Shown: piece after piece, positions 39,421 to 50,776 of the stretch
Position numbering within the stretch: the stretch's first letter is position 1
Layout of the letters: each line of letters opens with the position of its first letter
NCBI GenBank assembly: GCA_011523795.1
Contig: WTFY01000003.1
Span: 186,001 to 250,000 of the forward strand
DNA: 64,000 nucleotides
Source of the DNA: Gammaproteobacteria bacterium
Lineage (GTDB): Bacteria > Pseudomonadota > Gammaproteobacteria > UBA4575
Reading direction: 5' to 3'
Notes under the pieces: generated by a model
Database searches by the model: none
What the model saw: the letters and a program-made list of their open reading frames with translations, nothing else
What the model was told of the DNA's origin: nothing
Program-made: the position numbers and the translations under genes

Positions 39421-39810
39421 ATGAGCGAGCAACACGATTTGGACCGGTTCCTGATTGAGGACGGTGTAAGCAGCGACCGGGAGAGAATGATCGGACAGCA
39501 CATCGGCTACCGCTATGACGCCAATCTCGTTCCAGACTTGAACCGTGTCACACCATTTCTTGAAAAATACATGGAAATTATGGGCTGGAAAGACCTGAAC
39601 TGGCTTGAAGATGTCCATATGGGCTACGAAGAACAGCGCCCTGCAGTTTTTGACCGTAACATCAATGGCTGGGTTACGATTCCGGAAAATATGAAACTGC
39701 CTGACAACCAGCAGGACCGTGACATGCTTGCACGGGAGCTGCTTGTAAAATTCCAGATGTCACCCAACCATCCGATGGTTGACTTGATGAAGGCATACGC
39801 CAAATTCTGA
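39421..39810 (+). CDS. Unknown 129-aa protein of the NMG cluster
   Basis: 129 aa, acidic, soluble, with no signal peptide. It reads as helical with several Trp/Tyr residues (MEIMGWKDLNWLEDVHMGY and FDRNINGWVTIPENM). An AAGGGG-type ribosome site precedes the ATG, and it lies 15 bases after mgsC and 58 bases before the transporter gene, so it is part of the operon. I recognise no family. A small accessory or regulatory subunit of NMG synthase is a reasonable guess from position only. Confidence 0.78.
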   Translation: MSEQHDLDRFLIEDGVSSDRERMIGQHIGYRYDANLVPDLNRVTPFLEKYMEIMGWKDLNWLEDVHMGYEEQRPAVFDRNINGWVTIPENMKLPDNQQDRDMLARELLVKFQMSPNHPMVDLMKAYAKF

Positions 39811-41323: not shown

Positions 41324-41542
41324 ATGTCAACAGGTATGAAAAGCTTCGAAAATCTAGATCAGGCTGGGGCCATCTATCCCATGGTGGGCATGGAAGGGGT
41401 ACTCGCACTGGTTGGCATTGCAATTTGGATCATATGGCATTTCTGGCAAATCTGCATTGAAAACCGCGAGCATCGGAAAGACATTGAAAATGCCAAGACA
41501 TGGCATGCGGAGCGGACGAAAAAGCTCTCAAAAAATGACTGA
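41324..41542 (+). CDS. Small membrane protein after the Amt gene
   Basis: 72 aa with one membrane span (GVLALVGIAIWIIWHFW near residues 24-40) and a basic, charged C-terminal tail (RKDIENAKTWHAERTKKL). An AGAGGG ribosome site precedes the ATG. It lies 48 bases after the Amt gene and ends the plus-strand operon. It could be a subunit or regulator of the transporter; I recognise no family. Confidence 0.72.
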   Translation: MSTGMKSFENLDQAGAIYPMVGMEGVLALVGIAIWIIWHFWQICIENREHRKDIENAKTWHAERTKKLSKND

Positions 41543-41580
41543 GCAAAACCGTCTGCAGGTCAGCCGGCATAAGCAGGGCA

Positions 41581-43257
41581 TCAATAAAAATCCTCGTATA
41601 GGGAAATCAGGAAACTGACAAGCGGCTGTACGTCTCGAGATGAGATTCGCACGTTTCTGAGTTCACTGTCAGCATTCCTGATCAGTCCATTTCTGCTGCT
41701 GTTGGAGGAAGCAATATAAAACCCGACCGTTGCATGCAGGTCGCTTATCTGGCCATTATGCATGTATGGCGCTGAGTGACCCAGGTTCCGCAATGTTGGC
41801 GTCTTGAATGCAGCGATGGCCTTTTGCAAAGCCATGTCATCTGTTAGACAGGTGGCTTCATCACCGCAGAACAGGTTGCGCAGGTGCCCCTGAACATTTG
41901 GATAATCAGCATTAAGGAAAATGTTCCAGGCACCCAAGTCTGTTGCCAGGGTGTCTGACTCAGACGCTGCTTTTCGAAAGATTCCCAGCCTGTCAGGGTG
42001 TGCAGGGGTTGCAGGCAGATAAAGCCTGGCCCTCTCAATGCGCTGTTTCAGGTCAGGGATTTGCAGGTTCTGGAAAGAGCCTTGGCCGTGTATCGCCTCA
42101 TACTCGACTTGGGTGACCCCGATATTGTGCAGACTGAAGTCGGTAAAATGCGGGGCAGGGTGGCATATGGCACAATTGCCAGCTCCACGCCCGGGAACTG
42201 GTTTACGATTGAAAAATACCCTGAGTCCTTGCAGTTCCATCTCACCGAACGCATAGGACTGATCATGGAACCTGAATTGACCGTTTTCCGTGTTAGGGTT
42301 GCTTTTTACGAACTTCAGGTTTCCGTTCTCATCAAGCGACTCAATCAGTGCCAGCAATCGGTTGCCATAGTCTTCATCCGATTCATCCTCGCTTGGATGG
42401 GCAGGTAAGCTGTTGGTTGCCAGGAACAGGTCGTAGGGCGAGTAACTGTGCCTGTTTTCAGCAAACTTCAGGCTATCCATGTACCGTTCCAGTAAGTAGG
42501 CAACGCTCTCCAGAATATCGTTGCAGGTTCTTTCTGACACCTTGATACGGTGACCGGCATCAATCATGTACTTTTCAGGCAGCTGCCCTGACTCTGAAAG
42601 TCCTGAAAACACTTCAGGATACGACCAACCGCCGAATTTTTTTGCCAGGCTACCTGTTCCATCGTCCTGCCGGATGACATTGCAAACATGACGGATGGCA
42701 ACTTCCTGCTCATCAGGCAGCCATCCCAGATTACGTCCTGTGAGCGTGGAAACAATCAAGTCCCTTGCAGATGAAAACTCACCGTCATGATGAAGTACAA
42801 GATTATCTCTTTTCGAAAGCGAGCCTACCAGTACAGGTGAATTCCGAACGGTTACCAACTGACCGTCATCACGCTCCGCCAGAGGGCTCCTTGATGCAAA
42901 ATCGGCAAAGGCTCGCATGCCGAGTTCTTTCTGGTCGGCATGTTCATCCACCATATGGCATGTTCGGCAACTGTAGGATGTTCCTTTAAACGGGCTTGTG
43001 GCAAAAGGAATCTGGTAGGGTGGAAGGCCAAAGAACCTGAAAGTCTTTTCCAGCCTGGGGTCACCTTGAGCGAGCGTCTCGTTGATTCCACCGCCACGGA
43101 CCACGAAGTCGTGAAAGTACTGGGCAAACCTGGTTTCCTGGAATAACCTTGCTCCATGGAAGATTTCTCCGGGTAATGGGTGCTGCTCTGCACTGGCCTG
43201 GAGTGAGGAGAAAATAACCGATGCGAAAACTGCAAAATGGGAAATTCTTCTGAGCAT
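41581..43257 (-). CDS. MauG/CCP-like di-haem cytochrome c peroxidase family protein, exported
   Basis: 558 aa from the ATG at 43257, which opens a signal peptide (MLRRISHFAVFASVIFSSLQ); an in-frame TTG at 43305 is less likely. Two CxxCH haem sites are visible: CRTCH near residue 105 and CAICH near residue 365. The C-terminal family segment is TPTLRNLGHSAPYMHNGQI. The protein is much longer than bacterial cytochrome c peroxidase (about 330) or MauG (about 390). MauG-group enzymes oxidise side chains of partner proteins. In this methylamine island the partner may be one of the secreted neighbours, but methylamine dehydrogenase genes are absent. Confidence 0.85.
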   Translation of the reverse strand: MLRRISHFAVFASVIFSSLQASAEQHPLPGEIFHGARLFQETRFAQYFHDFVVRGGGINETLAQGDPRLEKTFRFFGLPPYQIPFATSPFKGTSYSCRTCHMVDEHADQKELGMRAFADFASRSPLAERDDGQLVTVRNSPVLVGSLSKRDNLVLHHDGEFSSARDLIVSTLTGRNLGWLPDEQEVAIRHVCNVIRQDDGTGSLAKKFGGWSYPEVFSGLSESGQLPEKYMIDAGHRIKVSERTCNDILESVAYLLERYMDSLKFAENRHSYSPYDLFLATNSLPAHPSEDESDEDYGNRLLALIESLDENGNLKFVKSNPNTENGQFRFHDQSYAFGEMELQGLRVFFNRKPVPGRGAGNCAICHPAPHFTDFSLHNIGVTQVEYEAIHGQGSFQNLQIPDLKQRIERARLYLPATPAHPDRLGIFRKAASESDTLATDLGAWNIFLNADYPNVQGHLRNLFCGDEATCLTDDMALQKAIAAFKTPTLRNLGHSAPYMHNGQISDLHATVGFYIASSNSSRNGLIRNADSELRNVRISSRDVQPLVSFLISLYEDFY

Positions 43258-43307
43258 GTTCAAGTGATATCCGTGCCTGCAAATATCATAAGCATGCCTG
43301 CCCAATT

Positions 43308-43341
43308 AAAAAAGCCCCGGTCTTTCAACCGGGGCTTTTTT
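43308..43341 (-). terminator. Strong intrinsic terminator of the 483-aa gene
   Basis: On the minus-strand RNA the stem is GCCCCGGT / ACCGGGGC with a TGAAAG loop, flanked by A-rich and T-rich runs. It sits between the 483-aa gene and the start of the di-haem gene, so the latter needs its own promoter. The same hairpin and loop recur at 59361-59395 in the same transcript sense. Confidence 0.88.
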
Positions 43342-43357
43342 ATAGGCTGCTTGAGTT

Positions 43358-44809
43358 CTACTGTGCAGGCATTACAGGTTCTTCCACAGTTGGGTATTTC
43401 AAGGTGATCTCGCCTCCCAGATCGCCCGCATGAGGATTCTTTTCTCCTCTTTCAGTGTTATAGGGGTCGGTGTATACCCCGTACTCTCCCGGCTGAATCG
43501 TATACTGGAGTTCCTGCACTCCGTGCCCGGCGTTAGCCAGGTACTTGTTTGGGTTATTCCAGCTTTCCCCGTCAAGGTTTGCGAAGAACTTGATGTCAAC
43601 CAGTACCCCATCACAAAGTGGTGTAATCTCTTCATAGTTGGTGGGCCAGCCCGCTGCACCGGTAGTCTTTGGATAGTTACTCCAGTCACCACCTTTCAGT
43701 GGACATGCACCACCTCCGCCAAATGCTGCGCGGTCAGGGTGGTGTACACCATACAGGGGTAAACCCTTGGCAACGGCTATTTCCCCGTTCTCCAGGTGGA
43801 ACCTGGGCTCATAGGTCACTTCAGTCTTGACGTCCTGCCCGACTGCCTTGATGTGCTCGTAATAATCACCGGACGGGCGGACATACTGGAAGTCTTGATT
43901 GTCAGAATTGTCAAAGACTGCTGTAATGAACAGGTAAGGTTCATTGAAGAAGGGACGCTCGATGAGGTAGAACTCGGCGTTGGTCTTGCTAATATCAACA
44001 GGTTGCCAGTCGACTGAGCTTTCATCCTCGCCACCTACATTGACCCACGCCCTGGCATCCGGAAACAGGTCAACCCGCAGCACTTTGGTATAAAGTTCAT
44101 TGACATCAAGGCCCGCGCGTTTTCCAAGCGGCCCCACTTGGCCTGCACCAGGCTGGCTGAATGCATAATCTATTGCCTTTCTGGCATAGGGATACTGATT
44201 CGCAGACATGGTGCAGTAAAAATGCGGCAAGTCAATGGCGACATGGTCACTGTATTTGCCCTTGTACTTGGGATGATGCAGGGGAACATCGATAAAGTTC
44301 AGGTGGCCATCTTCAGCGACTCTCTGATGGGGATGCTTGTAACCACCCCAGCTTTCTTCCGGCAAATAGCTTGCATAGTCACTCTCTATGGTGGCCATGT
44401 TGCCTTCATCGAACAAATCCGCACCATCTTTCAGCCCCTGTGCGTCCTGCTTCCTGTACTCGCGGATGGTCCCGTTGTCCTGCACTCGCCATAAGCCGTG
44501 CTTTCCTTCTCCTATCATTGTCATGGTTTGTTCGATGACATTTACGAAGCGGTAGGTATAGTTCGTGTTCATATACCCTGAAAAGACCGGCAGGTGCGGG
44601 ATTTTCGAATGCGTGGTTGCAGGACGGCCCGCACCTACCAATTTTGCTTGCCCGTCATCTTTCGCGACTGCCTGATCACTCGTGTAGTAATAGGGGTCGC
44701 CCTGTGTCAGGTCTTTTATATGGTCGGCATCTTCTGCACCTAAGTGAGTGGCTAAGGCTAGCAATAGCACACAGGCAGAACATGGCAATACTTTACTTAT
44801 GTAGTTCAT
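43358..44809 (-). CDS. Exported 483-aa protein of unknown family
   Basis: 483 aa from the ATG at 44809, preceded by a GAGAGG ribosome site; a start at 44833 would put extra residues before the signal peptide (KVLPCSACVLLLALATHLGA). The mature protein is rich in Tyr, Trp, Pro and Asp, with no transmembrane segment and few cysteines (FYCTMSANQ, GGACPLKGG, TPLCDG). It contains many beta-type segments such as ARAWVNVGGEDES and EFYLIERPFFNEP. I recognise no family. It lies between the cupin and the terminator on the same strand. A role as a substrate, scaffold or receptor for the di-haem enzyme is only a possibility. Confidence 0.78.
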   Translation of the reverse strand: MNYISKVLPCSACVLLLALATHLGAEDADHIKDLTQGDPYYYTSDQAVAKDDGQAKLVGAGRPATTHSKIPHLPVFSGYMNTNYTYRFVNVIEQTMTMIGEGKHGLWRVQDNGTIREYRKQDAQGLKDGADLFDEGNMATIESDYASYLPEESWGGYKHPHQRVAEDGHLNFIDVPLHHPKYKGKYSDHVAIDLPHFYCTMSANQYPYARKAIDYAFSQPGAGQVGPLGKRAGLDVNELYTKVLRVDLFPDARAWVNVGGEDESSVDWQPVDISKTNAEFYLIERPFFNEPYLFITAVFDNSDNQDFQYVRPSGDYYEHIKAVGQDVKTEVTYEPRFHLENGEIAVAKGLPLYGVHHPDRAAFGGGGACPLKGGDWSNYPKTTGAAGWPTNYEEITPLCDGVLVDIKFFANLDGESWNNPNKYLANAGHGVQELQYTIQPGEYGVYTDPYNTERGEKNPHAGDLGGEITLKYPTVEEPVMPAQ

Positions 44810-44850
44810 GTTGATTACCTCTCGCTCGGACATATCTAGATTGTGGTAGT

Positions 44851-45285
44851 TTAAAGTTCCTCTTGGGTTCTTTGCCCGCAGTAAAACCCAAGCCCTGAAG
44901 AATTTGATGAAAATGTAATTGCTGCACCTTTGTCAAAGTAAACCACATCGCCCGCAACCGCATGAAATGTTTCGCCACCCTCTTCAGCAATAGTCATTTC
45001 GCCTTCAACAATAATTTTTGCCTCATCGTAGGTATACGTGTATTTCAGCGGATCGCCTTTTTCCATCCTGAATAACCCGCAGGTTATCGGTGCATCAGGA
45101 TTGTTTGATGAAACCACGTCAGCTATAAATGCATTCACGCCCTCCATATCCATAGAGGCAAGTTCCATACTTCCCGCACCTTTGAAAGTCTTCATTTTTG
45201 GATCACTCTCTGCAGTAGCAGTCGTCGAGTAGGCAAGAACAAGCAAAGCGGAAAAGGCAAAAGCAGTTAAATTTCGTAAAAGCAT
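44851..45285 (-). CDS. Exported cupin-domain protein
   Basis: 144 aa from the ATG at 45285, chosen for its AAGGAG ribosome site and signal peptide (LLRNLTAFAFSALLVLAYST); an upstream start at 45333 lacks both. The mature part is one cupin barrel: YTYTYDEAKIIVEGEMTIAEEGG contains the first motif (with E in place of the usual His pair) and AVAGDVVYFDKGAAITF the second. This is EutQ-like in spacing. It probably lies in the periplasm, next to the 483-aa protein gene (41-base gap). It may bind a metal or small ligand; enzyme activity is not evident. Confidence 0.78.
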   Translation of the reverse strand: MLLRNLTAFAFSALLVLAYSTTATAESDPKMKTFKGAGSMELASMDMEGVNAFIADVVSSNNPDAPITCGLFRMEKGDPLKYTYTYDEAKIIVEGEMTIAEEGGETFHAVAGDVVYFDKGAAITFSSNSSGLGFYCGQRTQEEL

Positions 45286-45567: not shown

Positions 45568-46323
45568 TCAGTAATGCAAGTCAAGCAACGAGGCATACCC
45601 GACAGGCGCCCCCTTGAACTCCATGCCGGCGTCAACCAGGCAAGACCACATGTACTCAGTTGATGAGCAGTCAAACAGTAGATGGAAGGCAGGTATTTCA
45701 CCCATGTTATTGCGGATGACGATACAGTTCGTGCGTGCTACAGAAGTCTGCGCGATGGCTCCTCCAGAAAAGTTTTTGACTCGCAGGTCCATGCCGCAAA
45801 GTTTTGCCAGTGCATCAGTCGAGTACTGGCCGGTAAGCATCAACCAGGCGGATGCACTGGATCGGGGTACGGTATAGCATCCGGCCGGCCGGCTGTGCTT
45901 GTGTTTCTCCTCCAAACGGGCACATTGATCAAGACGGCTGCCCAGGCCATTCAAGACCAGGATTTCGGAATCGGACAGCCTGGCAACCAGCAAGCCGTCT
46001 TCCTGTAGGTAGGCACGGTTGTTGTGCTGACCGATTTTCAGGCCTGCCGAGCCTGCCCATTGAACCATTTCCGGGCCTTTGAAACCTGTTCTGGGCAGTG
46101 GGGTCAGATCAGCCAGGCCAAGCTGCATAGCCTGGGCAGCCTCCTGGTTCTTGCCGTTACCGTAGTCCATCACGCAGGAAGCATTCATACAGCTTTCAAA
46201 TCGCGCGCCTGCCGATATGAGCGTTCTATAGTGAGGACTTCTCATGTTGAAATCCGTGGGATGTACTGTTTGTGACACAACCTGCTCCCGGCTACATTTC
46301 CTGACGCTTGTTTTGCGGATCAT
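45568..46323 (-). CDS. mgdD: N-methylglutamate dehydrogenase / sarcosine oxidase gamma subunit
   Basis: 251 aa, SoxG-like fold related to half of the GcvT barrel. Features include DLTPLPRTGFKGPEMVQW, GLLVARLSDSEILVL and GGAIAQTSVARTNCIVIRN. It is the last gene of mgdABCD and overlaps the end of the alpha subunit by 32 bases, as usual for this operon. The gamma subunit stabilises the complex near the folate-binding part of the alpha subunit. The ATG at 46323 is used; a shorter start at 46245 is possible. Confidence 0.82.
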   Translation of the reverse strand: MIRKTSVRKCSREQVVSQTVHPTDFNMRSPHYRTLISAGARFESCMNASCVMDYGNGKNQEAAQAMQLGLADLTPLPRTGFKGPEMVQWAGSAGLKIGQHNNRAYLQEDGLLVARLSDSEILVLNGLGSRLDQCARLEEKHKHSRPAGCYTVPRSSASAWLMLTGQYSTDALAKLCGMDLRVKNFSGGAIAQTSVARTNCIVIRNNMGEIPAFHLLFDCSSTEYMWSCLVDAGMEFKGAPVGYASLLDLHY

Positions 46324-49216
46324 AGAACGGCATTTCTACAACCTGGACAGATTGCCTGCACCCGCTCTTCAGTTTGATTTGTATCAACATGCCTGGCTCA
46401 GTATCAGCTCTGGCGTACCCCATACCGATAATTTTGTTCAGGGTAGGGGAGTAACCTACCGACGTGATGTGCCCGGCAATGGAATCGCCATCGAGTATCA
46501 AATTTGATTCCCCAGGTACCTCGTCCTGTTCCGGCTCAACTGAAAATCCGACAAGTTTGCGATTGGAAGGGTAACGCCTGGCAGCCTGCAAGGAACGTCC
46601 ACCTACAAAAAACGGTTTTCGTTCGGCAACAGCCCATGTCATGCGGGCTTCATGGGGAGTCGTCATGGCATCGGTATCCTGACCGACGATAAGGTGACCC
46701 TTCTCCAGACGTAACAGTCGCTGTGCCTCAATGCCTACCGGCTGCATGCCGAACTCCCGACCTGCTTTCAGCAGTGCATCCCACAATGCCTCGCCCTGCA
46801 GCGATGGGGCGTGGATCTCGTAGCCCAGTTCACCTACGAAACCGACACGCAACAGACGTGCTGGAATACCAGCCACCTGGGCAGTGCGCACGGATAAATA
46901 GGGGAAGCTTGCCGGGGCAAGGTCAGTGCTGGTGCACAGTTGTTGCAGAACAGCTCTGGACTTGGGCCCCGCCAGGCTTATTCCTGCATAGGCCGAAGTG
47001 ACATTCGTTACATCAACATCAAGACGCCATTGCGCGTTCCACCACAACATGGTTCGGTAAACAGTTTCAACTCCACCTGTCGTTGCAGTGATATAAAAAT
47101 GTTCATCATCAAGCCGGCATGCAACCCCGTCATCTATAATCCTTCCGGCAGGATTTGTCATGAGAAGGTATCGTAGCGTGCCTGTCTTTTGTCTGGAATA
47201 GGAAAAGGTGTACATGCGGTTCAGGAATTCTGCAGCGTCCGGTCCCCGGACTTCCAGTCCACCCAGGGTGGATACATCGATCATGCCGACGTTGTTTCGA
47301 ACCGCGAGATTTTCCTTGAGGATCCAGCGGTCAGCGTGTTGCGGTTCTCCGTAGTATGCAGGTCGCCACCATTGCCCGGCCGTAACCATGTGCGCGCCTG
47401 CTTCCAGATGACGATGATGCATTGCAGTTAGCCGCTCAGGTTCAAAGCTGCGCCCGGCAATCACCGCGAGGTTCTCTGCATGAAGCGGAGGACGAGCAGT
47501 CGTGACTCCGACTTCCGACATGGTACGCTGAGTTTCCTCTGCCACAACTCGCGCTGTAGCCAATGCTGAGTGGCGACCTTGTGAAGGCCCCATGCCAACC
47601 GTCGAATAGCGTTTCACCAGCTCCAGTTCGTCATATCCATCTCGGCATGCATGAATAATATCCAGATATTGCAAATCTTCATCCAGATCCACAAACTCCT
47701 TGCCTCGTGGATGCGGAAAAATTGGCCAGGGGTGGTTGATGCTGGAATAGGAGATTGGGTTCAGAGGTCTCGAGGCAGCGGCACCTGGCACAGCAAGTCC
47801 CAGTTTTCTGGATGCGGCTTGCCCGGCTTGCCTGCCGGACTCAATGACAGAACCAAGCTCGTTTTTCCCGTTGACTGCCCCGGCCAGGTGTATGCAGGCG
47901 GGCAGGCCCGTAATCGAAAACCCGGATACCGCTTCATCATGCTTCAGCTTGCCGCCGGCATGCAGTGCAAGCTGATAGGAAGGCATGAAGCCTACAGATA
48001 CGCAAAGCAGGTCGCAGTCATAACGCCAGGCTTCATTGCCGCACTGACCGATGCCAGCAAGTTGACGCAGTGCTGCAGCCCGTATGCCGCGTGTATGCTT
48101 GTCCGGGAGAGCTTCGTACACGGTACACGCCTTGTGTATGGATATGCCACAGGCGAGTACTTTTTTGTACAGGGGTGTTGCGTCAAACGATTGACGCAAG
48201 TCTGCAACTGCAGTGACATTTACACCGTTTTCCAGCAATTCCAGTGCCGTTGCGTACCCATCGTCGCCGGCAGTGAGTACTACTGCCTGTTTGCCAGGCC
48301 GTACCCCGTACAGGCGGATCAGCCGCTGTGCAGCCGTGCCCAGCAACACGCCCGGGAGATCGTTGTTACGGAAAATTGCAGGCTGTTCCATTTTGCCCGG
48401 TGCCAGTATCAGTTCCTTCGTACGAAGTTTGTACATGCGGTGACCGCGGATAACAGGCAACCAGTTGTCAGCAAAATACCCGTTACAGACGGAGTCAGTC
48501 ATGACCTCGATGTTGGAATGGTCTGTAACAGCTGTGACCAGTTCATCGTGAAGGGTGTGCGCAAGCGTTCCTTCAGTATCGAATCGACCATAGTTGAGTG
48601 ATCCGCCGATGACAGTTTCCTGCTCAATGAGAAGAACTTCCGCACCTGCGTCGGCTGCGGCCAACGCAGCACTCATGCCTGCCGGCCCGCCACCTACCAC
48701 GGTAATCTCGCTGAACAGGTATTGCTTGTCGTAGTAGCCATGCGGTGTGTCTGGATGCACTTGACCCAGTCCTGCAAACTTTCGGATGATCGGTTCCCAA
48801 ATATTTTGCCATGCACCTTTAGGCTGAAAGAATGCCTTGTAATAAAACCCCACGGGAAGAAACCGGTTTACCAGGCTGATTTTTTCAGCCTGGTCATTAG
48901 CGAGGCTTCCTATGCAATTTTGACCGCTTACCTGAAGCCCTTGGGTAACTTTTCGTCTGTCAGCCGCTACATTGGGTTCGTTATCAACCTGGACCAGCGT
49001 GTTGGCCTCAAGCCCGGCCATGGACAATACACCGCGTGGACGATGGTATTTGAAAGAACGGGATAACAGCCAGACGTCATTTGCCGCCAATGCGCTGGCA
49101 ATGGTGTCTCCGGCAAGGCCGGTGTACTGTGTGCCTTCAAAGCTAAAGTTGATCGTGTTCTCATGATCTACTAGCCTGCCGGCGGGAGCGGGTAAACGGT
49201 TAGGTGAGGTATACAC
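46292..49216 (-). CDS. mgdC: N-methylglutamate dehydrogenase / sarcosine oxidase alpha subunit
   Basis: 974 aa from GTG 49216. Domains in order: an N-terminal 2Fe-2S-like Fer2_4 region (residues 15-120, RSFKYHRPRGVLSMAGLEAN), an FAD/NAD-binding disulfide-reductase-like domain (VVGGGPAGMSAALAAADAG near residue 173), and a C-terminal GcvT-like folate domain (from about 590, including SRQKTGTLRYLLMTNPAGR). It binds NAD+ and tetrahydrofolate and oxidises the N-methyl group, passing it to folate as 5,10-methylene-THF. Sarcosine oxidase alpha is the same fold; NMG dehydrogenase is chosen because of gmaS and mgsABC in the same island. Confidence 0.87.
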   Translation of the reverse strand: MYTSPNRLPAPAGRLVDHENTINFSFEGTQYTGLAGDTIASALAANDVWLLSRSFKYHRPRGVLSMAGLEANTLVQVDNEPNVAADRRKVTQGLQVSGQNCIGSLANDQAEKISLVNRFLPVGFYYKAFFQPKGAWQNIWEPIIRKFAGLGQVHPDTPHGYYDKQYLFSEITVVGGGPAGMSAALAAADAGAEVLLIEQETVIGGSLNYGRFDTEGTLAHTLHDELVTAVTDHSNIEVMTDSVCNGYFADNWLPVIRGHRMYKLRTKELILAPGKMEQPAIFRNNDLPGVLLGTAAQRLIRLYGVRPGKQAVVLTAGDDGYATALELLENGVNVTAVADLRQSFDATPLYKKVLACGISIHKACTVYEALPDKHTRGIRAAALRQLAGIGQCGNEAWRYDCDLLCVSVGFMPSYQLALHAGGKLKHDEAVSGFSITGLPACIHLAGAVNGKNELGSVIESGRQAGQAASRKLGLAVPGAAASRPLNPISYSSINHPWPIFPHPRGKEFVDLDEDLQYLDIIHACRDGYDELELVKRYSTVGMGPSQGRHSALATARVVAEETQRTMSEVGVTTARPPLHAENLAVIAGRSFEPERLTAMHHRHLEAGAHMVTAGQWWRPAYYGEPQHADRWILKENLAVRNNVGMIDVSTLGGLEVRGPDAAEFLNRMYTFSYSRQKTGTLRYLLMTNPAGRIIDDGVACRLDDEHFYITATTGGVETVYRTMLWWNAQWRLDVDVTNVTSAYAGISLAGPKSRAVLQQLCTSTDLAPASFPYLSVRTAQVAGIPARLLRVGFVGELGYEIHAPSLQGEALWDALLKAGREFGMQPVGIEAQRLLRLEKGHLIVGQDTDAMTTPHEARMTWAVAERKPFFVGGRSLQAARRYPSNRKLVGFSVEPEQDEVPGESNLILDGDSIAGHITSVGYSPTLNKIIGMGYARADTEPGMLIQIKLKSGCRQSVQVVEMPFYDPQNKRQEM

Positions 49217-49231
49217 TTTAACTGACTAATA

Positions 49232-49525
49232 TTACAGATTATTTTTATGTTTAAATTCGACTCGATCGGTAAAGACATCGCTTGCAGGGTAGGTCGCCAG
49301 AATTTCATCCGTGACCGTATTCCTTTCAGCAATGAACCAGTACGAGGTTGCCGCATGACACCACCATTCACGAACTACTCCCGCAGTATTATTCGACAGC
49401 CAGATGAAGTCTGCCCATTCATCATCGCTGCTGTCTTGCGGGCAGGGCATTATCGATACTTCACCAAAACAAATGAATTCTGAGATATTCCGTGGGCCGT
49501 TCAATGGGCAGTTCATGATCTTCAT
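49232..49525 (-). CDS. mgdB: N-methylglutamate dehydrogenase / sarcosine oxidase delta subunit
   Basis: 97 aa, PF04267-type small subunit. It carries CPLNGPRNISEFICFGE at the N-terminus and then DDEWADFIWLSNNTAGVVRE and WWCHAATSYWFIAERNT. In sarcosine oxidase delta the N-terminus is CPxCGxR, with zinc-binding cysteines; here the second cysteine is replaced by Asn, a form I associate with the NMG-dehydrogenase branch. A GGGGGTAA ribosome site precedes the ATG. It lies between mgdA (9-base gap) and mgdC (15-base gap). Confidence 0.88.
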   Translation of the reverse strand: MKIMNCPLNGPRNISEFICFGEVSIMPCPQDSSDDEWADFIWLSNNTAGVVREWWCHAATSYWFIAERNTVTDEILATYPASDVFTDRVEFKHKNNL

Positions 49526-49534
49526 TGTTACCCC

Positions 49535-50776
49535 CTAATGGCTTGCCGCAGTGGCTCCTGCCTCGTTGAACAGCTTGAAGCGCCTGAATCGCTCAAGCCC
49601 GAACGGCTGAATCAGTCTGGCTGTTTTCTCATTTGCAAGTGATTCTGCCATGCACTTGCCGGATATGGGTGTAGCCTTGAATCCCCAGGTGCCCCAGCCT
49701 GCATCCAGCCAATAGTTTTTTACCGGGCTGGTCCCAAGGATGGGGCTGTAATCGGGCGTCATGTCAGTAATGCCTGCCCATTGGCGCAGCAGCTTCAGTT
49801 CGCCCATGAAAGGGAACATTTCCAGAACGTGCGCGATGAGATTTTCCTTGAGATCCAGGGTAGAGCGCGTCGAGTACAGTTCGTACGGATCAGAACCACC
49901 CCCTATGACAACTTCACCGCGTGCGGTCTGTGAAACATAAGCATGCAGTTCTGCTGAACTCACCAGCGGGTCCAGAAAGGGCTTGACGGGCTGTGTGACC
50001 ATGGCCTGCAGGGGATAGCTTCGAATTGGCAGTCGAATTCCCGCCATTCTTGCAACTTCTGAGCTCATACCCGCTACAGCCTGGACGGCATGATTGCAGC
50101 GGACAGTCCCGCGGGCTGTTTGCACTGCCACGACTTTACCTTTATCGACATGTATGCCGGTAACCTCGGTGCGCTGGTGAATTTCAACGCCCATCTGTGC
50201 TGCGCGCATTGCGTAGCCCCATGCAGCGGCATCATGTCTTGCCGTGCCGCCATCGCGGTGCCATAGGCCTGCCTGGATCGGAAAACGCATCTTTTTATCC
50301 ATATTCAGACAAGGCACGATTTCACGGATTTGTTTCCGGTCCACCATTTCAGACCGGACCCCCAGGTGCTTGTTGATCTCTGCCCGCAACCTGAATGCGC
50401 GTACGCTGGCATCGGAGTGAGCAAGGGTAAGTTGTCCTCGCTGGGAATACATCTGGTTATATCCCAGCTCGTTGGACAGGTTTTCAAACATCTCGACAGA
50501 GGCCTTGTAGAATTCTATTGCCTCGGGCGAGATATAGTTTGACCGAATCACTGCAGTGTTGCGTGCAGTATTGCCGCCGCCCACGTACCCCTTGTCCAGT
50601 ACGGCAACATCTGTAATGCCATGGTAACGGGCCAGGTGATACGCGGTGGACAAACCGTGTCCTCCGGCTCCTATGATGACAATCTCATAAGATTTTTTCA
50701 GTTCACGAGGACCGGGTATATCTCGACGAGCCGGATATTTGGAAGCAAGACCGTATTTTAGTAAGCCCCACGGCAT
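49535..50776 (-). CDS. mgdA: N-methylglutamate dehydrogenase / sarcosine oxidase beta subunit
   Basis: 413 aa, DAO-fold flavoprotein that holds the catalytic FAD (or FMN) of the complex. IVIIGAGGHGLSTAYHLARY lies near residue 31 and VAVLDKGYVGGGNTARNTA near residue 57. The remainder includes GLWHRDGGTARHDAAAWG and the C-terminal WLDAGWGTWGFKATPISG. It is the first gene of the operon mgdA-B-C-D, in the order typical for both NMG dehydrogenase and heterotetrameric sarcosine oxidase. The 230 bases upstream hold no gene and probably its promoter. Confidence 0.9.
   Translation of the reverse strand: MPWGLLKYGLASKYPARRDIPGPRELKKSYEIVIIGAGGHGLSTAYHLARYHGITDVAVLDKGYVGGGNTARNTAVIRSNYISPEAIEFYKASVEMFENLSNELGYNQMYSQRGQLTLAHSDASVRAFRLRAEINKHLGVRSEMVDRKQIREIVPCLNMDKKMRFPIQAGLWHRDGGTARHDAAAWGYAMRAAQMGVEIHQRTEVTGIHVDKGKVVAVQTARGTVRCNHAVQAVAGMSSEVARMAGIRLPIRSYPLQAMVTQPVKPFLDPLVSSAELHAYVSQTARGEVVIGGGSDPYELYSTRSTLDLKENLIAHVLEMFPFMGELKLLRQWAGITDMTPDYSPILGTSPVKNYWLDAGWGTWGFKATPISGKCMAESLANEKTARLIQPFGLERFRRFKLFNEAGATAASH

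Follow-up and report, generated by a model that had tools for sequence, protein, structure and literature searches.

A MauG-like di-haem protein accompanies one of two clades of an unclassified, putatively exported protein family

In a 64,000-nucleotide stretch of a gammaproteobacterial genome (the window), genes for a small cupin, a protein of 483 amino acids (the 483-aa protein) and a MauG-like di-haem protein lie side by side. Comparison with related loci shows that the association of the di-haem protein with the 483-aa protein is real but clade-specific, and that the cupin and 483-aa genes are the core unit, which exists without the di-haem enzyme. We consider it an evenly balanced proposition that this core was joined in one clade by a di-haem enzyme that works directly with the 483-aa protein.

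All three genes are on the minus strand. They encode an EutQ-like cupin of 144 amino acids (44851..45285; Pfam Cupin_3, 5e-10), the 483-aa protein (43358..44809, with its ATG at 44809), for which database searches gave no known family, and a c-type di-haem protein of 558 amino acids (41581..43257), the best start of which is the ATG at 43257; its residues are numbered from that methionine. By inspection, the N termini of all three resemble Sec-type signal sequences, predicting export. The neighbouring mgdDCBA genes (45568..50776, minus strand), which lie outside the module, encode the sarcosine-oxidase-like N-methylglutamate dehydrogenase and match soxA and soxB models; an earlier note on this DNA had placed three exported-looking proteins after them, and the open reading frames agree. 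Between the 483-aa and di-haem genes, sequence and folding indicate a strong terminator-like hairpin with a U-tract (43308..43341, minus strand), which is absent from the list produced by a consensus terminator scan; comparable hairpins fold in most relatives, some without a U-tract. Because this hairpin separates the two genes, the three do not form one simple operon, and the di-haem gene may be expressed separately from, or at a lower level than, the 483-aa gene. On the plus strand, a 129-amino-acid protein encoded between an MgsC-like gene and amt (39421-39810) is 83% identical to its counterpart at locus L017 and matches no Pfam or NCBIfam model, and a small predicted membrane protein (about 72 amino acids; about 41324-41543) is encoded directly 3′ of amt, convergent with the di-haem gene.

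The 483-aa protein is outside the families in the libraries searched (Pfam and NCBIfam, including the methylamine dehydrogenase (MADH) light chain and SBP56). It had been called unrecognised, and a remote-homology search agrees: no Pfam or NCBIfam model matched at E ≤ 1, and no PDB entry matched by sequence or profile. AlphaFold predictions for the 483-aa and di-haem proteins, with shallow alignments, are poor (mean pLDDT of 47.8 and 41.5, respectively), and Foldseek with the former, at that pLDDT, returned nothing significant. A description of the protein as rich in tyrosine and tryptophan stands for tyrosine (6.8%) but not for tryptophan (7 residues, 1.4%). Eight histidines and three cysteines are invariant in the family alignment and common to both clades described below; these would suit a metal site.

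Scanning a genome collection recovered relatives of the 483-aa protein at 18 further loci (59–87% identical to the window protein). One additional relative is on a plasmid of Paracoccus sp. TOH; no other plasmid relative was found, and there were none in the viral contigs searched. A profile search of a 398-genome sample of the phylum found no relatives in the other genomes, and neither that sample nor the viral contigs yielded any more distant than the 59–87% set. Another relative is divided across two contig ends (L007 and L008, genome G209), its first 160 residues unmatched, because either the assembly or the gene itself is broken there. The other genes around the cupin/483-aa unit vary between groups, and the hosts span the alpha-, beta- and gammaproteobacteria; from flanks and host range together, the unit has probably spread horizontally. 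Many of the loci adjoin a gene, mostly divergent, that encodes a LuxR-type regulator containing a GAF-like region; one query, in a search without a positive control, found no such regulator in the window's own genome.

In a tree, the window protein and 17 of its relatives form two sister clades, separated by a branch with support of 100/100. In the linked clade (the window, L017–L023 and L025), the di-haem gene lies directly after the 483-aa gene at all nine loci, and a truncated tenth locus on this side (L033) comes from a genome in which a di-haem homologue is present. This clade is gammaproteobacterial and includes several lineages with differing flanks. The unlinked clade comprises two Methylotenera, Methylophaga, another Piscirickettsiaceae genome, Microvirga, three Paracoccus and one further member of the Pseudomonadota. 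Searches of these nine whole genomes at E ≤ 1e-5 recovered no di-haem homologue, and the gene after the 483-aa gene is often that of a TorF-type porin (Gcw_chp). The 483-aa protein is equally well conserved in these genomes; because all nine carry it without a di-haem homologue, the enzyme is not an obligatory maturase of the family, nor does the 483-aa protein generally need it. The earlier note had proposed checking whether the three genes co-occur, and took rare co-occurrence as evidence against its idea. They do co-occur in one clade and do not in the other, with the cupin present throughout, so that co-occurrence is rare in one half of the family but clearly not rare in the other. Within the linked clade, the di-haem protein changes about twice as fast as the 483-aa protein, and pairwise distances of the two, the only pair compared, correlate strongly (r = 0.95), a congruence that shared vertical descent can also produce.

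At 18 of 18 loci, the gene that immediately precedes the 483-aa gene encodes a cupin homologue, which has a signal sequence everywhere except at L021. The window cupin scores above the Pfam cut-offs for Cupin_3 (39.3 bits against 23.5) and EutQ (37.1 against 21) and below that of the NCBIfam acetate-kinase EutQ equivalog; by inspection, the usual metal-ligand histidines are replaced by tyrosine (YTYDE). Its cytosolic relatives adjoin genes for trimethylamine N-oxide (TMAO) demethylase, trimethylamine monooxygenase, dimethylamine monooxygenase and amt. EutQ-like cupins of unknown function have previously been noted near Tmo/Mao genes (PMC5023230). At L023 (316-1268) and L033 (5869-6697), the 483-aa gene is preceded by two cupin genes in tandem, only one of which has a signal sequence; this suggests a duplication followed by export of one copy. 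Two genomes from the taxonomic family of the window (L043 and L044) have a LuxR/GAF-type regulator beside a cytosolic cupin, with neither a 483-aa nor a di-haem gene; the L043 regulator reads as two overlapping pieces.

Two invariant CxxCH motifs place the di-haem protein in the CCP/MauG superfamily: CRTCH at residues 97–101 (42955..42969, minus strand) and CAICH at residues 362–366 (42160..42174, minus strand). The protein weakly matches MauG-, MbnH- and His-Xaa-Ser-associated MauG-like models (E of about 2e-12) and falls below the cut-offs of the MauG equivalog TIGR03791 (46.5 bits against 443.85) and the MbnH family TIGR04039 (46.8 bits against 362.85). It had been described as CCP/MauG-like yet longer than usual, correctly, as it exceeds the 387-residue MauG precursor of P. 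denitrificans by 171 residues. The column of MauG Tyr294 is tyrosine in MauG, in all nine linked proteins and in three stand-alone homologues; the window residue, Tyr514 (41716..41718, minus strand), occupies the sixth-ligand position of the second, six-coordinate haem. As a putative haem ligand, Tyr514 would place the protein on the MauG-like branch. The residue before a conserved Asp-Gly, likely to be the MauG Trp93 position but in a region that does not align securely with MauG, is His, Tyr, Leu, Val, Phe or Ser and never Trp. The stand-alone homologues, 40–46% identical, occur in three members of the class that lack the 483-aa gene. Linked and stand-alone forms (the latter from these three genomes) are distinguished by 40 diagnostic residues; an insertion around residues 56–85 and Cys192, Cys245 and Cys470 mark the linked form, as would be expected if it had adapted to a partner.

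A search for a clade-specific aromatic target in the 483-aa protein gave a result that resembles chance. Among the 38 alignment columns that separate the clades, Tyr41 and Tyr215 are tyrosine in all linked and phenylalanine in all unlinked members and position 280 is tyrosine only in the unlinked clade; two columns against one is no excess. All invariant tryptophans and nearly all tyrosines are common to both clades, and a His-Pro-His motif at residues 159–161 is confined to the linked clade. The proposal that the 483-aa protein is a MauG-type substrate thus gains from adjacency in the linked clade, tyrosine richness, the correlated distances and the tyrosine ligand position, and loses from the di-haem-free half of the family and the lack of an aromatic excess.

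The MADH light chain (PF02975) was not found genome-wide in the window genome or in any of the linked genomes, and a P. denitrificans plasmid control was positive. Methylamine dehydrogenase had been reported as absent and a canonical MauG role as unlikely; both statements hold, and we reject that role because the window genome has no MADH light chain. The light chain (MauA) does occur in five of the nine unlinked genomes, and thus in 5 of 18 carriers. Proximity to mgdABCD had also been pointed out; it is confined to the window and to L017, a near relative, and is mostly coincidental. Because MgsC is present in 5 of 18 carriers, a general dependence on the N-methylglutamate pathway is rejected. 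DmmA is present in 3 of 18 carriers and Tmm in 2 of 18, and four Porisulfidus-type genomes have none of MgsC, MauA, DmmA and Tmm. The location of cytosolic cupin kin beside TMAO and di- and trimethylamine genes hints, weakly, at a plausible role of the module in periplasmic methylated-amine or broader C1 metabolism.

We suggest that two genes, for a usually exported EutQ-like cupin and the orphan 483-aa protein, form a core unit that has spread horizontally and often has a LuxR/GAF-type regulator nearby; in methylotrophs and in symbionts that use sulfur or C1 compounds, its products would act in the periplasm or on the cell surface. In one gammaproteobacterial clade, the one that includes the window, a MauG-like enzyme may have been added to this unit and would now be a direct working partner of the 483-aa protein. 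Its haems would be one five-coordinate c haem and one His/Tyr haem, and its peroxide-type oxidizing power may serve either to oxidize a residue in the 483-aa protein or for electron exchange between the two proteins. Such a partnership is favoured by the adjacency at 9/9 linked loci together with the homologue in the L033 genome, by the position of the linked clade on one side of the 100/100 branch, by the distances, diagnostic residues and retained Tyr294 equivalent of the linked di-haem form, by the cupin at every locus with cytosolic kin near methylated-amine genes, and by precedents (PMC3912023, PMC5739008 and PMC6405878). Half of the 483-aa family nevertheless has no di-haem homologue, shared descent would also be expected to produce congruent distances, and a hairpin intervenes between the two genes in most genomes; the methylated-amine or C1 part has against it that the marker genes are not general in carriers. 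Narrower still is the possibility, which we hold tentatively, that the di-haem protein oxidatively modifies tyrosine or tryptophan of the 483-aa protein in the manner of MauG or CorB, the di-haem-free clade having an unmodified or differently matured form. The MauG-type tyrosine ligand position and precedents (PMC3912023 and PMC5739008) point this way, as do Tyr41 and Tyr215, although Tyr280 goes the opposite way and the conserved 483-aa residues are common to the di-haem-free clade; the Trp93 position is apparently not Trp, which BthA shows not to be disabling (PMC6405878).

A second narrower form of direct partnership makes the 483-aa protein a periplasmic metallo-oxidoreductase, for which the di-haem protein would be an electron acceptor or peroxide remover, with other acceptors in other carriers. 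Neither fold nor family supports such an enzyme and the metal site is putative, but the invariant residues are histidine (8), cysteine (3) and methionine, the linked clade has its His-Pro-His, and a TorF-type porin often replaces the di-haem protein as the next gene in the sister clade; this, too, is possible rather than probable. We think it rather unlikely that the di-haem protein acts as a peroxidase on its own, a stable neighbour by chance with no direct action on the 483-aa protein: the stand-alone homologues in three genomes without the 483-aa gene and the terminator-like hairpin would fit, whereas constant adjacency across several lineages with differing flanks and the insertions and cysteines confined to the linked form would not. 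It is very improbable that the enzyme's true target is the cupin, which has a gene in the same cluster and a tyrosine-rich core but for which the genomes lacking the di-haem gene are still more numerous. Bolder, and in our view unlikely, is that the 483-aa protein represents a new exported class in which a residue is converted by the MauG-like enzyme to yield a protein-derived cofactor or a metal site for periplasmic methylated-amine or C1 oxidation, while the unmodified proteins of the sister clade have a related function.

The window thus holds a compact set of three putatively exported proteins (small cupin, orphan and MauG-like) beside methylamine-use genes in a sponge-associated type of bacterium. 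A highly conserved, unclassified family splits cleanly, one clade always and its sister never with a MauG-like enzyme, and the di-haem/483-aa pairing is therefore directly testable. The split offers a natural comparison for what the di-haem enzyme adds, and the unlinked clade has cultivated members (Methylotenera, Paracoccus and Microvirga). Such work would also offer a way into the still unexplained EutQ-like cupins that accompany methylated-amine genes.

To our knowledge, few partners of MauG-like enzymes are known. MbnP, an exported protein of C1-using bacteria, is encoded beside the di-haem CCP/MauG-like protein MbnH. As in MbnP/MbnH, CorA/CorB and MopE/SACCP, the gene of a predicted exported protein here adjoins that of a di-haem CCP/MauG-like protein; unlike in those systems, none of the family models for such partners matches the 483-aa protein, half of whose family has no di-haem gene. 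CorA/CorB and MopE/SACCP likewise couple an exported protein with a di-haem protein of this type in C1-using bacteria (PMC3912023). P. denitrificans MauG shares with the window protein two CxxCH haems, the tyrosine ligand position and a partner, here putatively exported, encoded nearby; the window protein differs in its 171 additional residues, an apparently non-Trp residue at the Trp93 position and a genome without the MADH light chain, and its similarity to MauG is detectable mainly in the C-terminal PYMHNG region. The EutQ-like cupins of methylated-amine clusters (PMC5023230) are of the same cupin type and also near methylated-amine genes, whereas the window cupin has a signal sequence and is tied to an orphan protein. 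MtoX, a methanethiol oxidase of the SBP56 type that has genes for SCO1 and a MauG-like protein alongside (PMC5739008), offers a parallel in a periplasmic C1- or sulfur-related protein with strictly conserved histidines and a neighbouring MauG-like gene; the 483-aa protein, however, has no SBP56 match, there is no SCO1 gene and its constant partner is the cupin. In BthA of Burkholderia, the inter-haem tryptophan is replaced (Ser257), the tyrosine ligand is kept, bis-Fe(IV) still forms and a partner gene is adjacent (PMC6405878). On key residues, the extent of this comparison, the window protein is similar, with a tyrosine ligand and apparently no inter-haem tryptophan, and, as with BthA, its gene always has a partner gene of unknown role as neighbour, although the partner is different. 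By analogy, the arrangement is best read as a further version of the pairing of a MauG-like enzyme with an exported partner, as in CorA/CorB and MtoX/MauG.
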